Assembly: GCF_021556455.1 (NCBI RefSeq)
Contig: NZ_JAKGCV010000011.1
Span: 1 to 38,621, forward strand
Source: Streptomyces fuscigenes
GTDB taxonomy: Bacteria > Actinomycetota > Actinomycetes > Streptomycetales > Streptomycetaceae
Length of the DNA: 38,621 nt
Direction: 5' to 3'
This document shows positions 410 through 6,183 of this stretch, piece after piece. Made by a program: the position numbers and the translations under genes. Below the pieces are notes generated by a model. That model was given only the letters and a program-made list of their open reading frames with translations. It was not told the DNA's origin and did no database searches. Within the stretch, counting starts at the first letter, position 1; the number at the start of each line of letters is the position of its first letter.

Positions 410-1675
410 TCAGCGGACCGGGCGTTCCCGTTCTTCCCGGTCCTGCGTCTCGCGGCTCAGGAACAGTGCGAACACCGGCGGATTCGGCTGGAGCAGCTCC
501 AGCCGCCCGCCGTCCGCCTCCGCCAGGTCGCGGGCGACCGCGAGGCCGATGCCCGTCGAGTTGTGGCCGCTGATGGCCCGCTCGAAGATCCGCGCGCCGA
601 GGTCCGCGTCGACGCCGGGGCCCTCGTCCGTCACTTCGATGACGGCCTGGTTGCCCGTGACACGGGTGCGCAGGGCGACGGTTCCTCCGCCGTGCATCAG
701 CGAGTTCTCGATCAGTGCGGCGAGCACCTGCGCGATCGCGCCGGGCGTCGCCATCACCCATACGCCCTGCCGCCCGGAGCGCACGATCGCCCGCCCGGCA
801 CCGCGGTAGACGGGCTTCCACTCCTCTATCTGCTGCTTGATGATCCGGTCGAGATCGAGCGGGACGGCCGAGCCCGTGCGGGGGTCGCGTGCATTGGTCA
901 GCAGCCGCTCGACCACGTCGGTGAGGCGTTCCACCTGGTTCAGTGCGATCGACGCCTCGTCCCGGGCGGTGTCCAGATCCTCGGTGACGGTGATCTCCTC
1001 CAGCCGCATGGACAGGGCGGTGAGCGGGGTACGGAGCTGGTGCGACGCGTCGGCGGCCAGCCTGCGCTCGGCGGTGAGCATGCGGCCGATGCGCTCGGCG
1101 CTGGAGTCGAGGACGTCGGCGACCCGGTCGAGTTCCGGTACGGAGTACCGCTTGTGCCGGGGCCGGGGGTCGCCCGAGCCCAGTTTCTCGGCCGTCTCGG
1201 CGAGGTCCACGAGGGGCGACGCGAGCATGTTGGCCTGCCGTACCGCGAGCAGCACGGCGGCGATGATCGCCAGCAGGGCGACCCCGCCGATGATCAGCAG
1301 CGTACGGCCGACCTCGCGCGTGACCGAGGAACTCTGCTCCTCGACCGTGACGACCTCGCCCTGCTCGCCGTGCGCCCGGCCGCGGATGACGGAGCCCTTG
1401 GGCTCCTTGCCGACCTGGACGTCGGGACGGCCGGGCACGTCGATGCGTGCGTAGCGGTTGGCGGTGATCTGCTGCTTCAGGGCGCTCGCGCTGATCGACT
1501 CGCCGCCCAGCAGCCGTCCGTCCACGATGCTGACGACCCGCAGCGCCTCCGAGTCGACGCTCTCCTGCGCACTGCTCGTGATCGTCCGCGTCTCCACGAT
1601 GACCAGGGACACGCCGAAGACGGCGATCACGACGAGCACCACGGCCAGCGTGGAGTTGATCAGTCGACGGCGCAA
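410..1675 (-). CDS. sensor histidine kinase of a two-component system
   Basis: A membrane histidine kinase that should autophosphorylate and pass phosphate to the regulator encoded just upstream (2244-2921). From the TTG at 1675 it has 421 residues: TM1 about 8-27, an extracytoplasmic loop, TM2 about 124-145, a HAMP-like linker, the HisKA site SHQLRTPL with His212, the N-box LIENSLMH with Asn324, Asp350 in the G1 box and STGIGLAVA in the G2 box. I chose TTG 1675 because GGAGGG lies 7 bases before it and the basic MRRRL then leads directly into TM1. An ATG at 1804 (464 residues) has a weaker GGGG site and would add a low-complexity extension. The signal sensed cannot be read from the sequence. 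The long gap to the regulator gene suggests a separate or processed transcript. Confidence 0.9.
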   Translation of the reverse strand: MRRRLINSTLAVVLVVIAVFGVSLVIVETRTITSSAQESVDSEALRVVSIVDGRLLGGESISASALKQQITANRYARIDVPGRPDVQVGKEPKGSVIRGRAHGEQGEVVTVEEQSSSVTREVGRTLLIIGGVALLAIIAAVLLAVRQANMLASPLVDLAETAEKLGSGDPRPRHKRYSVPELDRVADVLDSSAERIGRMLTAERRLAADASHQLRTPLTALSMRLEEITVTEDLDTARDEASIALNQVERLTDVVERLLTNARDPRTGSAVPLDLDRIIKQQIEEWKPVYRGAGRAIVRSGRQGVWVMATPGAIAQVLAALIENSLMHGGGTVALRTRVTGNQAVIEVTDEGPGVDADLGARIFERAISGHNSTGIGLAVARDLAEADGGRLELLQPNPPVFALFLSRETQDREERERPVR

Positions 1676-2243
1676 TGTGGTGCCCTCCGGGCGGGGGTGA
1701 GCGCGGCCGGCGGCCGCTGTGACGGTGCTCGCCACCCAGCTTTTCAGTATGCGGGGCCCGGACGCGCCCGAGGGGCCCGTGTCCGCCACCGGGTCCAGCG
1801 ACATCGCGTCACCCCAACCCTGCGCGCGTAAAACCTTCCCCGCGCGCGCCCGCTCGGCTCCACGCGCCCGCCCGCCCGCGCGCCCCGCCCCGCGCGCGCC
1901 TGCCCCGTACCGGATCACCGGCACCCGCCCGATCCCGCCGCGTGTCGATGGGGGCCGCTCAAGGACGCGGGAAGCCCCGTCGGGCGAGGAGGGCGGATCC
2001 GTGGCAGTCCCGTGCCGCGGCATCGCGAGCGGGAAGGCGGCGGCCCGGGGCCTCACGGGTCGGCCACGCAAGTGAAGGGGAGCACCGCCCGGCTTCCCCC
2101 GCCGCGCGTCAGCTCTTCTCGGAGCGGGAAGCCGACCCTTGCGCGTCAGCTCTTCTCGAAGCGGGAAGCCGACCCTTGCGCGTCAGCCCTTCTCGGAGCG
2201 GGAAGCCGACGCCTCAGCTCTTCTCGAAGCGGAAGCCGACGCC
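1676..2243. other. unusually long gap between regulator and kinase genes
   Basis: About 570 bp (440 bp if the kinase starts at ATG 1804) separate two genes that are usually adjacent. The part next to the regulator gene is a repeat array (2109-2243); the rest is GC-rich with no credible ORF. A CATACT hexamer on the minus strand near 1746-1751 could be a -10 element for the kinase gene, but no -35 was found. Confidence 0.5.
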
Positions 2244-2273
2244 TCAGCTCTTCTCGAAGCGGAAGCCGACGCC
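2109..2273 (-). repeat. five-copy tandem repeat of the response-regulator 3' end
   Basis: Units on the plus strand are 2109-2145 (37 bp), 2146-2182 (37), 2183-2213 (31), 2214-2243 (30) and 2244-2273 (30). The last is the authentic end of the regulator gene, encoding GVGFRFEKS and the TGA stop. The unit at 2214-2243 is identical to it and keeps its frame, so read-through would repeat the same nine residues and stop. The farther units carry substitutions, an extra base, and in two cases a 7-bp extension. Confidence 0.93.
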
Positions 2274-2921
2274 CCGGACGGTGGCGATGTAGCGGGGATT
2301 GGCCGCGTCGTCGCCGAGCTTCTTGCGCAGCCACGAGATGTGCATGTCGAGCGTCTTCGTCGACGACCACCACGTGGTGTCCCAGACCTCGCGCATGAGC
2401 TGGTCGCGGGTGACGACCCGGCCCGCGTCCCGGACCAGGACCCGCAGCAGGTCGAACTCCTTGGCCGTGAGCTGCAGCTCGTCGTCGCCCATCCAGGCGC
2501 GGTGCGATTCGACGTCGATGCGTACGCCGTGGGTGGCGGGCGCGGGCGCGGGTTCGCTGGCGCCGCGCCGCAGCAGGGCCCGCACGCGCGCGAGCAGTTC
2601 GGCGAGGCGGAAGGGCTTGGTCACGTAGTCGTCGGCCCCCGCGTCGAGCCCGACGACCGTGTCGACCTCGTCGGCGCGTGCGGTGAGCACCAGGATCGGC
2701 ACCGCGTGCCCCTCGGCCCTGAGCCGGCGCGCGACCTCCAGGCCGTCCATGCCGGGCAGTCCGAGGTCGAGTACCACCAGGTCGACGCCGCCCTGGAGTC
2801 CGGCGTCGAGCGCCGTGGGACCGTCCTCGCGCACCTCGACCTCGTACCCCTCCCGCCTGAGGGCGCGGGCCAGTGGTTCCGAGATGGATGCGTCGTCCTC
2901 GGCGAGCAGTACACGGGTCAT
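2244..2921 (-). CDS. OmpR/PhoB-family response regulator
   Basis: A 225-residue DNA-binding regulator, the usual OmpR-family length. The receiver domain (about 1-118) has the acidic pocket E8-D9-D10, phospho-acceptor Asp52 in VVLDLGLPGMDG, Thr80 and Lys102 in DDYVTKPF. The C-terminal winged helix (about 130-225) has the typical LTAKEFDLLRVL and TVRGVGFRFE segments. The kinase gene downstream is the likely partner. No Shine-Dalgarno sequence precedes the ATG at 2921. A TACCAT hexamer ends 7 bases upstream, which would place the transcript start at or next to the ATG, so a leaderless mRNA is possible; this is inference. The final 30 bp including the stop codon are tandemly duplicated downstream. 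Confidence 0.95.
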   Translation of the reverse strand: MTRVLLAEDDASISEPLARALRREGYEVEVREDGPTALDAGLQGGVDLVVLDLGLPGMDGLEVARRLRAEGHAVPILVLTARADEVDTVVGLDAGADDYVTKPFRLAELLARVRALLRRGASEPAPAPATHGVRIDVESHRAWMGDDELQLTAKEFDLLRVLVRDAGRVVTRDQLMREVWDTTWWSSTKTLDMHISWLRKKLGDDAANPRYIATVRGVGFRFEKS

Positions 2922-3064
2922 GGTGGTGATGGTAGTCCGCGAGCGGTGTGCGACGGGCAGTGATGGGCCGAGCCTCTGGTACGGATCGAAGCGTAGGGTT
3001 TCACCTTCGAATCACGCCTTTCCGGGTGCCAGTAACCTGTGATTCATCTCTCAAGTCCTTCTAA

Positions 3065-3106
3065 ATGGCCCTATGGCGTGTCGTATGGTTATGCGGAAGC
3101 CTGTAG
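3065..3106 (+). other. possible leader peptide uORF-A (13 aa)
   Basis: ATG 3065 to TAG 3104-3106 would encode MALWRVVWLCGSL, with two Trp in 13 residues. It has no clear ribosome binding site and overlaps uORF-B in another frame. It is listed only because it sits in a leader ending in a strong terminator hairpin. Confidence 0.2.
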
Positions 3107-3132
3107 TACCAGTTGGGGACCTTTGGCGATGA
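3073..3132 (+). other. possible leader peptide uORF-B (19 aa)
   Basis: ATG 3073 (with in-frame ATGs at 3085 and 3091) to TGA 3130-3132 would encode MACRMVMRKPVVPVGDLWR. The stop codon falls inside the loop of the hairpin at 3118-3146, so a ribosome finishing this ORF would cover the 5' arm. That is the usual geometry of ribosome-mediated attenuation. No Shine-Dalgarno is visible, so translation is unproven. Confidence 0.3.
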
Positions 3133-3153
3133 CGCTGCCAAGGGTCTTCTTTT
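3118..3153 (+). terminator. intrinsic terminator in the POT transporter leader
   Basis: GACCTTTGGC (3118-3127) pairs with GCCAAGGGTC (3137-3146), giving ten base pairs including one G-U, with a 9-base loop followed by TTCTTTT (3147-3153). A real U-tract is uncommon in such GC-rich DNA. It lies 173 bp before the transporter ATG and is oriented to stop plus-strand transcription, so it either ends a small RNA or attenuates the transporter mRNA. Confidence 0.75.
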
Positions 3154-3325
3154 GTGTGCGGGCGGCATCCCCACGGATCACCGGGTCGCCGGCCTACCGG
3201 CCTGCGACGCACGGCGCACGGTCCGGCGGCCCACCGGCTGCCTGCCCGCGCGGCCGTCGACGGGTTCCGTGGCCCCCCGGCGTGCGGCCCCCCACGGCCG
3301 GCACCCCCCACGAGCAAGGAACACC

Positions 3326-4846
3326 ATGGCGACCACACTGATGAAGGACGCGTCGAGCCCTCCCGGCGGCGGCAAGACCTTCTTCGGCCACCCGCGCGGC
3401 CTGGCCACCCTGTTCATGACCGAGATGTGGGAGCGTTTCAGCTTCTACGGCATGCGGGCGCTGCTCACGCTCTATCTGCTGTCCGGCGGCCCGGACGCGT
3501 CGAAAAGCCTCCACGGCGGCGGCCTGGCCATGGACCTGGCCACCACCACCGCGATCTACTCGATCTACAACTCGCTCGTCTACCTTCTCGCCATGCCCGG
3601 CGGCTGGCTCGGCGACCGGGTGTGGAGTCCGCGCAAGACCGTGGCGATAGCCGCGGGCACGATCATGGTGGGGCACCTGACCCTGGCGCTGCCGGGCTCG
3701 GGCACGTTCTTCATCGGCCTGGCCCTCGTGGCGCTCGGCTCGGGCCTGCTCAAGGCCAACATCTCGACGATGGTCGGCCACCTGTACAAGGGCCCGAACG
3801 ACCCGCGACGCGACGGCGGCTTCACGATCTTCTACATGGGGATCAACACCGGCGCCTTCTTCGCCCCGCTGGTCATCGGGACCGTGGGCGAGAAGTACAG
3901 CTGGCACCTGGGCTTCGCGCTCGCCGCCGCCGGCATGGCGATCGGCCTCGCGCAGTTCCTGATCGGCACGCGTCACCTGAGCCCCGAGAGCAGCAGGGTG
4001 CCGCAGCCGCTGTCCCGCGAGGAGCGCACGTCGTGGCTGCGCAAGGGGCTGCTGTGGGTGATGGTCGCCGTCGTCGCGTACGGCATCATCGGGCTGAGCG
4101 GGCACTTCACCCTGAACTGGGCGATGGTGCCGCTGACCGTCGCGGGCCTCGTCATACCGGCCGGGGTGCTGTGGCGGATCAAGCGGGACCGCTCCCTGTC
4201 GGCCGGGGAGCAGACCAAGATGTCCGGGTACATCTGGTTCTTCGTCGCCGCGGCCGCGTTCTGGATGATCTACGACCAGGGCGGATCGACGGTCCAGGCC
4301 TTCGGCACCAACAAGGCGGCCGACAACGTGCTGGGCCTGGCGTTCCCGACGTCCTGGTACCAGTCGCTCAACGCGATCTTCATCATGGCGCTCGCGCCGG
4401 TGATGGCCTGGCTGTGGCTGTGGCTGAAGCGGCGCCAGAAGGAGCCGAGCACGGTGGTGAAGTTCGCCGTCGGGCTGGTCTTCATGGGCCTCTCGTTCTT
4501 CTTCTTCCTGATCCCGCTGTTCATGGCGGAAAACGGGACGCTGGTCAGCCCGATGTGGCTGGTGGGGATCTACTTCATCCAGACGGTGGGCGAGCTGTGC
4601 CTGTCGCCGGTCGGCCTGTCGGTGACGACGAAGATGGCGCCGGAGAAGTACGCGAGCCAGATGATGGGCGTGTGGTTCCTCGCGGTGACCGCGGGAGACT
4701 CCGTCACCGGGCTGCTGTCCATCGCCGACGTGGACCTCAGCGGCACCGGCGTGGTCGCCCTGGAGGCGGTGCTGGCGACGCTCGCCGGCCTTGCGGTGGT
4801 CATGTACCGCCGCCGCGTCCGGGGCCTGATGGGCGAGATCCACTGA
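3326..4846 (+). CDS. POT/PTR-family proton-dependent peptide transporter
   Basis: A 506-residue major facilitator superfamily protein predicted to import di- and tripeptides with protons across the cytoplasmic membrane. Family hallmarks are the N-terminal TEMWERFSFYGMRALLTLYL (the E-x-x-E-R-F-x-x-Y-G element), GGWLGDRVWSPRK between early helices, and the PTR2-type FYMGINTGAFFAPL. Some 12 to 14 hydrophobic segments run through the protein and the length is normal for bacterial members. The start at ATG 3326 follows AAGGA by 5 bases. The gene stands alone: a leader hairpin precedes it and a strong GC terminator follows, so it is probably monocistronic. Substrate range cannot be deduced from sequence. 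Confidence 0.93.
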   Translation: MATTLMKDASSPPGGGKTFFGHPRGLATLFMTEMWERFSFYGMRALLTLYLLSGGPDASKSLHGGGLAMDLATTTAIYSIYNSLVYLLAMPGGWLGDRVWSPRKTVAIAAGTIMVGHLTLALPGSGTFFIGLALVALGSGLLKANISTMVGHLYKGPNDPRRDGGFTIFYMGINTGAFFAPLVIGTVGEKYSWHLGFALAAAGMAIGLAQFLIGTRHLSPESSRVPQPLSREERTSWLRKGLLWVMVAVVAYGIIGLSGHFTLNWAMVPLTVAGLVIPAGVLWRIKRDRSLSAGEQTKMSGYIWFFVAAAAFWMIYDQGGSTVQAFGTNKAADNVLGLAFPTSWYQSLNAIFIMALAPVMAWLWLWLKRRQKEPSTVVKFAVGLVFMGLSFFFFLIPLFMAENGTLVSPMWLVGIYFIQTVGELCLSPVGLSVTTKMAPEKYASQMMGVWFLAVTAGDSVTGLLSIADVDLSGTGVVALEAVLATLAGLAVVMYRRRVRGLMGEIH

Positions 4847-4870
4847 CGATCCGGCTCACCGCGGGAACGG

Positions 4871-4907
4871 GGGAGGGCCGGCGCTCCACGTGAGCCCCGG
4901 CCCTCCC
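4871..4907 (+). terminator. GC-rich terminator after the POT gene
   Basis: GGGAGGGCCGG (4871-4881) and CCGGCCCTCCC (4897-4907) form a perfect 11-bp stem with a 15-base loop, 25 bp after the stop codon. Only CTT follows, so it is a GC-type terminator without a U-tract. Confidence 0.75.
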
Positions 4908-4940
4908 CTTCGCGTGAAGCGTGTCCCCGCGGCACCTCGT

Positions 4941-4985
4941 CACGTTCCACACGTCCCACACGTCCCACACGCCGCACACGCCGGC
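4941..4985. repeat. 9-bp tandem repeat, five units
   Basis: Five 9-base units close to CACGTCCCA start at 4941, 4950, 4959, 4968 and 4977. The two central units are identical and the outer ones drift. It lies in the intergenic region after the transporter terminator; no function is evident. Confidence 0.75.
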
Positions 4986-5156
4986 GTCGCGCTCGCGGGC
5001 CGGCTCGCCACAGTCACCAGGAGCACCCCCGGACAGCGAAACGCACCACGTCGGTCGGGACCGCGCGGTGCGTACGAGTCGCCGGTTGTGCCCCTGCGTG
5101 CAGGGGGCGGGAGGACCGGGTGAGGGTGCGGGGCGTAAGGGGACGGGCCGGCGCGG

Positions 5157-5639
5157 CTACGCCGGTGCCGCCAGTTCCGCCCACACCGTCTTGCCCTGCG
5201 TGTCGGGGAGGCGCTGCACGCCCCAGTCGAGGCAGAGCCGCTGGACGATGAACATGCCGTGGCCGCCCGGGCGCCCGGCCTGGTGCGGTGTGCGGGGGGC
5301 GGGCTGGCCCTCTCCGCGGTCGGTGACCTCGAGGCGCAGGACCTTCGCCGCCGTCGACACGCGCAGCCGCTCGGGGCCGTCGGCGTGCAGGCACGCGTTC
5401 GTCACCAGCTCGGACACGACCAGCAGCACGTCCTCGGCCGCCGCTCGGGTGTCCGGTGTGGAGGCCGGAAGCCAGCCCCAGTCGTAGAGAGCCTGGCGGG
5501 TGAAGTCGCGGGCGAGCGGGACCACCCCGCTGGCGCTGTCCAGCGTGAGCGTACGGTCCGTGCCGTCCGGCACCGACACCTGGTCCGTGCCGGGCTCGGG
5601 GCCGAGGTCGCCCGGCGATGGCTGCCGGGTGGTGCTCAT
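5157..5639 (-). CDS. prsI: RsbW-like anti-sigma factor (HATPase_c_2)
   Basis: A 160-residue GHKL-fold ATP-binding protein. The N-box ELVTNACLHA contains Asn81, Asp107 lies in EVTDRGEG, and GGHGMFIVQ (about 125-133) is the glycine-rich lid. Proteins of this type bind a SigB/F-family sigma factor and phosphorylate a STAS antagonist. The STAS gene lies directly upstream on the same strand and the sigma gene diverges from it, which fits a complete partner-switching module. ATG 5639 follows AGGTGA at good spacing. The symbol rests on remembered synteny with the S. coelicolor sigI-arsI-prsI cluster and is less certain than the family call. The first 30 residues are a flexible Pro/Gly/Asp-rich tail. 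Confidence 0.88.
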   Translation of the reverse strand: MSTTRQPSPGDLGPEPGTDQVSVPDGTDRTLTLDSASGVVPLARDFTRQALYDWGWLPASTPDTRAAAEDVLLVVSELVTNACLHADGPERLRVSTAAKVLRLEVTDRGEGQPAPRTPHQAGRPGGHGMFIVQRLCLDWGVQRLPDTQGKTVWAELAAPA

Positions 5640-5814
5640 CAGCGCTTCACCTCACCGATTCGCGGAAGTGGCATGGGAGCCGCACAGAAAGTGAGTGCAG
5701 GGATGAGTGCGGCCTGCGGGATTCTTCTGCCCGCAGGCGCCGGGACAACACCCCGCGCCGAGGCACAACACTCCGCGCCGCCACAGCACCCCGCGGGGAC
5801 CTCGACGCCCACGC

Positions 5815-6183
5815 TCACTCCGCCAGCGCGTCGTGCAGCGTCGCGTGCACGCCGAAGACCGCGTCCGCGCCGGTGATCTCGAAGACCCTGGCGACCACGG
5901 GCCGCATCGCGGCCAGGTGCACGCCGCCGCCGGCCGCATCCGCCTTGAGGCGGGCGCCGAGCAGCACATTGAGTCCTGTCGAGTCGCAGAATTCGAGCTG
6001 TGAACAGTCGATCACCAGGCGTGACCGGCCGTTGTCCAGTGCCTCGTCGAGTGGAACGCGCAGCAGCTCGGCCGTGTGGTGGTCGAGCTCACCGGCCGCT
6101 GTCACGACCTCGCTGCGGCCCTCGGTGCGAACCTCGACCCTGAGCCGGCCCCGGTTCGTACTGCCGACCGTCTGGCGGTCCAT
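5815..6183 (-). CDS. arsI: STAS-domain anti-anti-sigma factor
   Basis: A 122-residue STAS protein of the SpoIIAA/RsbV type, a normal length. It should bind the RsbW-like protein encoded downstream and release the sigma factor. The phosphorylation loop is FCDSTGLNVLL, with candidate phospho-Ser68 in D-S-T-G. ATG 6183 follows AAGGGA; longer readings of the frame run into Arg-rich non-coding sequence. The gap to the anti-sigma gene is 175 bp, so the two could be co-transcribed. The symbol rests on synteny as for prsI. Confidence 0.9.
   Translation of the reverse strand: MDRQTVGSTNRGRLRVEVRTEGRSEVVTAAGELDHHTAELLRVPLDEALDNGRSRLVIDCSQLEFCDSTGLNVLLGARLKADAAGGGVHLAAMRPVVARVFEITGADAVFGVHATLHDALAE

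Follow-up and report, generated by a model that had tools for sequence, protein, structure and literature searches.

The intergenic region between the response-regulator gene draR and a divergent POT-family peptide transporter gene of Streptomyces fuscigenes carries a promoter-proximal transcription terminator, and comparison with relatives indicates that this leader terminator is real and conserved genus-wide. In Streptomyces and some close relatives, transcription of the small-peptide importer gene appears to begin at a highly conserved promoter, with a conserved early terminator no more than about 60 bases beyond it. We consider it fairly likely that the element comprises the POT promoter together with the first ~60 nt of the POT transcript, and that its terminator acts in cis as an attenuator; the peptide importer is probably throttled just after transcription begins. 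The features of the locus are collected in Table 1, numbered within the window, the 38,621-nt stretch of DNA that was analysed.

Table 1. Features of the draK-draR-POT locus, in window coordinates
Feature	Position	Strand	Basis or remark
Kinase stretch	413-1885	-	DraK_HK_N domain, E 4.2e-25
draR, response regulator, divergent from POT	2244..2921	-	
ACCTTYGAAT box, conserved, draR side	3003..3012	.	alignments
Imperfect palindrome ACCTGTGATTCATCTCTCAAGT, draR-POT region; probable regulator site (predicted)	3035..3056	.	half-site conservation
13-codon ORF, MALWRVVWLCGSL then stop; judged accidental	3065..3106	+	start lies 5′ of the predicted transcription start
19-codon ORF, MACRMVMRKPVVPVGDLWR then stop; judged accidental	3073..3132	+	start lies 5′ of the predicted transcription start
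-10 element TATGGT	3084..3089	+	TATGGT in 104/128 loci
Predicted transcription start	3096..3098	+	inferred, 7-9 nt 3′ of the -10 element
Conserved 5′ transcribed segment, family consensus ACGCCTGTWGCAC	3097..3109	+	alignments A1 and A2
Terminator hairpin, ten pairs	3118..3146; arms 3118-3127 (GACCTTTGGC) and 3137-3146 (GCCAAGGGTC)	+	pairing 92.7% (A1), 91.8% (A2)
U-tract TTCTTTT	3147..3153	+	read from the sequence
Remaining POT leader	3154..3325	+	diverged here; relatives show another covarying hairpin plus a stem 5′ of the Shine-Dalgarno sequence
POT-family oligopeptide:H+ symporter gene	3326..4846	+	PF00854, E 1.2e-63; TIGR00924, E 5.2e-176; ATG at 3326

The locus is of the Streptomyces type, with the DraR and DraK genes leftward and the POT gene rightward of the intergenic region (2922-3325) that contains the element. 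DraK and DraR correspond to SCO3062 and SCO3063 in a table of PMC9739842, and from this numbering and the place beside DraR the POT gene is likely to be the ortholog of SCO3064. The SCO3064 promoter is described in the accessible text of PMC7157823 as bound and repressed by WblC; SCO3064 was not found in the main text of PMC4681348. According to the available portion of a review (PMC10345050), DraRK acts on antibiotic production at high amino-acid nitrogen, and DraR represses itself.

The original prediction described a hairpin with a U-tract and a local drop in GC upstream of the POT gene. The hairpin and U-tract lie exactly where it placed them, its other statements about the sequence are likewise accurate, and GC falls to 0.50 at 3001-3060 and 0.54 at 3061-3160, compared with 0.81 at 3161-3325 and 0.73 in the whole window. 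A separate scan returned the same hairpin with 14 pairs, outer G-U pairs included. When the intergenic region was dinucleotide-shuffled 500 times, no shuffle reached the terminator score of our own scan. The predicted 58-nt short RNA folds with -22.3 kcal/mol (z = -2.39), and 5 of 200 shuffles were equally stable; two longer stretches, 3030-3155 (z = -0.73) and the full-length predicted leader (3097-3325; z = -1.19), were not unusually stable. The element has the makings of an intrinsic (Rho-independent) terminator, with a U-tract directly after a GC-containing hairpin, and relatives show selection for the pairing.

A 246-base DNA query located the region in 144 of 199 genomes of the genus, as a single copy in 142 of the 144, and most of the matches started near position 3035 and stopped near 3163. 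In the family, R1, a covariance model of 133 positions spanning promoter and terminator between draR and POT, matched 114 of 249 genomes, 99 from the genus itself (the window's genome among them) and 15 from four other genera. In a sample of the class, R1 matched 22 of 246 genomes, comprising 21 from the genus and one partial match (locus L147, genome G633), which has neither draR nor POT beside it and was set aside as unrelated. Genomic context was read for 129 loci, a set that left out L147 and L091-L131; DraR was present at all 129 and POT at 128, the exception (L050) being at a contig end. In named records located by pattern, both genes accompanied 69 of the 80 matches listed, and the other 11 had one gene, with the element near an edge.

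The 20 genomes missed by R1 that were listed and examined included six from the genus, and six of the 20 gave no POT match. The palindrome was not found in several missed loci that have both draR and POT (L296, L300, L301, L304 and L309). Other missed loci, such as L299 and L306, retain draR, POT and a promoter-proximal hairpin. In these two the hairpin, recognised by eye, has an unrelated sequence and a U-rich tail (GAACCCCCGGT..ACCGGAGGTTC followed by TTTCT in L299), and in L298 and L303 a hairpin stands at the same place without a U-tract, again by eye.

Over 125 loci, pairwise identity averaged 0.73 from the palindrome to the -10 element, 0.56 in the transcribed part up to the terminator, 0.40 in the remaining leader and 0.63 in the final 60 bases; it was 0.38 in the 100 bases 5′ of the palindrome and 0.67 in a POT coding stretch.

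Covariation of the stem was assessed in two alignments. In alignment A1 (58 of 90 loci, thinned to less than 93% alike), 92.7% of the terminator-stem cells were paired and four pairs were changed on both sides. Of 500 shuffles, none matched the alignment in covariation score or in percentage of paired cells, and five matched the four doubly changed pairs; the count of further pair types was equalled in 217 of the 500 and so did not exceed the shuffles. Stems slid along A1 scored lower on percentage paired and covariation, and some equalled the true stem in double changes. Alignment A2 (76 loci, other genera included, thinned at 90%) gave 91.8% of stem cells paired and seven of the ten pairs changed on both sides, a pairing score raised by leaving out, before thinning, 13 loci whose terminators were absent or aberrant (L153, L077, L079, L154, L157, L159, L160, L162, L086, L164, L166, L169 and L167). 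For the three-helix structure in A2, none of 500 shuffles reached any of five measures. Conservation of the hairpin and compensatory changes in its stem, which the original prediction had proposed as its own test, were therefore found in both alignments.

The two arms evolve differently, the 5′ arm (GACCTTTGG) being almost invariant while the 3′ arm drifts, with many U-A to U-G changes. Such drift through G-U pairs opposite a nearly fixed arm could also be expected if the hairpin were not a terminator at all, serving instead as a protective 5′ stem-loop or, at the DNA level, as a palindromic binding site for a regulator, and the relatives whose hairpins have no U-tract by eye (L298, L303) would agree with that. 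We regard this explanation as improbable. In 110 of 128 loci, the nine bases after the stem include at least four U, by a scan whose score favours U, and against a DNA palindrome stands the finding that the sequence changes preserve pairing in the RNA, G-U pairs included. A stem of at least eight pairs with at least four U was present in 103 of 128 loci, compared with 8 of 128 mononucleotide-shuffled segments. In 22 of the 128, a simple scan did not find a hairpin of at least seven pairs with four U. Three loci (L153, L157 and L159) have kept the promoter, have no recognisable terminator and seem to have lost it. At L153 (genome G426, ~490-570), the promoter directly abuts a downstream GTGACCTGTGGCC box, which offers a natural terminator-less comparison.

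The sequence upstream of the terminator has the geometry of a promoter. The palindrome has the form TGTGA-N6-TCTCA, and the right half-site TCTCA was present in 122 of 128 loci, which had been located by a pattern requiring TGTGA and TC[TGC]C. With at most one mismatch, the palindrome occurred in 37 of 61 genomes of the genus (39 matches in total). In 111 of 127 loci, the distance from the start of TGTGA to a downstream TANNN[TC] hexamer is 46 nt, a count that is favoured by the procedure, since the hexamer nearest to 46 was taken wherever a 28-nt span held several. Binding by DraR was considered and not supported: the DraR consensus, which we take to be AMAAWYMAKCA, occurred in just 2 of 127 intergenic regions. 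A Crp site was also rejected. The palindrome matches Crp-type operators of S. coelicolor, given as GTG(N)6GNCAC in the accessible text of PMC10033298, in its left half and its length, but its right half is TCTCA, and not TCACA, in the 122 loci.

Besides the loci with TATGGT (Table 1), TANNNT with other middle bases was found in 21 further loci of the 128, of which roughly two thirds belong to other genera; the search pattern demanded TA at the start and T or C at the end. The variants were TAAAGT, TAAGGT, TACCGT, TACCTT, TATCGT, TACAGT and TAGAGT, and this variation, as read from the aligned loci, fits a -10 element; TAnnnT is the -10 consensus of S. lividans in the part of PMC8079986 available. 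No -35-like hexamer was seen by eye at the usual distance, and a sigma-70 consensus scan of 1500-6000, which needs a -35 element, found no promoter. The transcription start site is thus a prediction.

The original prediction proposed, as a candidate mechanism, that translation of a leader with two overlapping small ORFs controls the terminator, with a short RNA as the alternative. Both ORFs are present as described, the TGA of the longer one (3130-3132) falls in the hairpin loop, and no Shine-Dalgarno sequence was seen in the bases upstream of either. Ribosome-mediated attenuation is known in Streptomyces from the accessible text of PMC8079986 and PMC12421871, and the start position at 3073 is a GTG in 48 of 128 loci. 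Across these loci, fixed offsets from the -10 element were used to compare the ORFs. The 3073 position was further occupied by ATG in one locus and TTG in 10 (any start codon, 59), and the 3065 position by ATG in 25 and TTG in three (any start codon, 28). ORF lengths were erratic, ranging from 1 to 118 codons from the 3073 position and from 3 to 42 from the 3065 position when frames open to the fetched end were excluded. The ORF conservation that the original prediction had proposed to look for was not seen in the start codons or lengths of the 128 loci, and one-base indels between the -10 element and the conserved 5′ segment break the reading frames. Both starts fall inside the conserved promoter, 5′ of the predicted transcription start, from which ~21 nt to the hairpin leave no room for a leader ORF. 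Since neither starts nor lengths are conserved, indels break the frames, and the starts precede a transcript with so little space, attenuation by translation of the 13- or 19-codon ORF is very unlikely; no conserved, translated leader ORF of the kind that defines such attenuators emerged from the 128 loci. The ATG within TATGGT opens a further candidate ORF, which seemed conserved in a handful of sequences and was dropped because of one-base indels. Of the proposed attenuation leader, then, the conserved terminator in the POT leader stands and the mechanism driven by upstream ORFs does not, and the trigger for read-through is probably neither ORF.

Pairings of the conserved 5′ segment that might oppose the terminator were also considered. 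Two stems with sequence beyond the U-tract (P1a and P1b) were attractive by eye, as was a small 5′ hairpin (P0) in single sequences, and none clearly beat the shuffles, the percentage paired being reached by 41, 314 and 33 of 500 for P1a, P1b and P0, respectively. With these three lacking clear support, no antiterminator is known. Further downstream, relatives have a second covarying hairpin that begins shortly past the U-tract (84.4% paired in A2) and a stem just 5′ of the Shine-Dalgarno sequence. The latter was 91.6% paired in alignment A3 (44 of 62 non-redundant loci; 18 that were hard to align were left out by eye), a level reached by none of 500 shuffles, whereas its count of doubly changed pairs was reached by 120 of 500. 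In this window both structures are either lost or no longer recognisable. Their presence in relatives suggests, from covariation, that the read-through RNA matters; the hairpin after the U-tract may serve as a back-up terminator. Conserved boxes between the terminator and the POT start were noted in relatives' leaders, such as those of L007 and L133 (AGTGAAYGACCTGTSGGCCGG, GGGCGTGGATCCCGG and CCGGTGCCGG..CACCGGGCGCG..CGCGTCCC), which suggests a larger structured leader, mostly lost here.

The main rival to attenuation in cis is a stand-alone small RNA of ~57 nt that would act in trans through its 5′ segment ACGCCUGUWGCAC, with POT expressed mainly by other means. An own predicted promoter, a strong terminator, a conserved 5′ segment and the want of a clearly supported antiterminator pairing would all be in keeping with such an RNA. 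A stand-alone RNA would, nevertheless, be expected to occur independently of the neighbouring gene, and in the loci read for context, the partial match in G633 aside, the element lies beside POT. The covarying hairpin a few bases past the U-tract also speaks against it, as this hairpin implies that a read-through RNA is made. We judge the trans-acting RNA unlikely, though less so than the other alternatives weighed here.

In the favoured reading, a promoter-proximal terminator acting in cis, RNA polymerase would start near 3097 at a promoter of the activator type, with a palindrome at near-fixed spacing, a TANNNT -10 element and no clear -35 element, and would then meet the intrinsic terminator at 3118-3153. 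Most transcripts would then be expected to end at ~57 nt, leaving the transporter gene to read-through polymerase alone. At the level of sequence, the promoter geometry, the compensatory changes in the hairpin and the linkage in cis to POT are established by the comparison; we infer the start site, actual termination and regulated read-through. A more far-reaching version holds that the element is an undescribed regulatory RNA of the Streptomycetaceae, in which a terminator ~20 nt past the start is overridden without a leader ORF or an upstream antiterminator, for example through a factor that loads at the promoter palindrome with its fixed spacing, and in which a nitrogen signal linked to DraRK would be coupled to peptide uptake. 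This we put forward as a long shot.

Promoter-proximal terminators and premature units in Streptomyces 5′ leaders are reported from term-seq in the accessible text of PMC8269248 (S. clavuligerus, with 96 of its 150 premature units described as novel) and PMC8914203 (S. griseus). As in these leaders, the terminator of the POT leader follows the start site and precedes the start codon; unlike them, it is supported here by comparative evidence. The ribosome-mediated attenuators trpL and leuL (PMC8079986) and are5sc and wblC (PMC12421871), as described in the available portions of these papers, likewise place a leader terminator before the controlled gene, whereas the POT leader has no conserved upstream ORF, no space for one and no clearly supported antiterminator. 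No curated covariance model of a riboswitch, T-box or other Rfam RNA matched: the window gave no match at gathering level and 2900-3400 none up to E 10, and eight relatives' loci gave six sub-threshold miRNA or snoRNA matches alone (E 1.7-9.4). The POT leader was not named in the titles and abstract openings of the literature searched; the draR-POT region may be among the 606 conserved S. clavuligerus intergenic regions catalogued according to the accessible part of PMC11678152. The present analysis supplies base-level coordinates for a probable leader control, outside any Rfam family, of a peptide importer beside the DraRK two-component system, in a form that can be tested with Streptomyces start-site and term-seq data.

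Two further observations concern draR. On its side of the intergenic region, the ACCTTYGAAT box and a GGTTCC box are both conserved in the genus, GGTTCC being absent here, and together they are perhaps the draR promoter. Just 3′ of draR, at 2102-2270, lies a tandem array of about five copies, the unit of which resembles the last codons of draR and its stop (..GFRFEKS, then stop).
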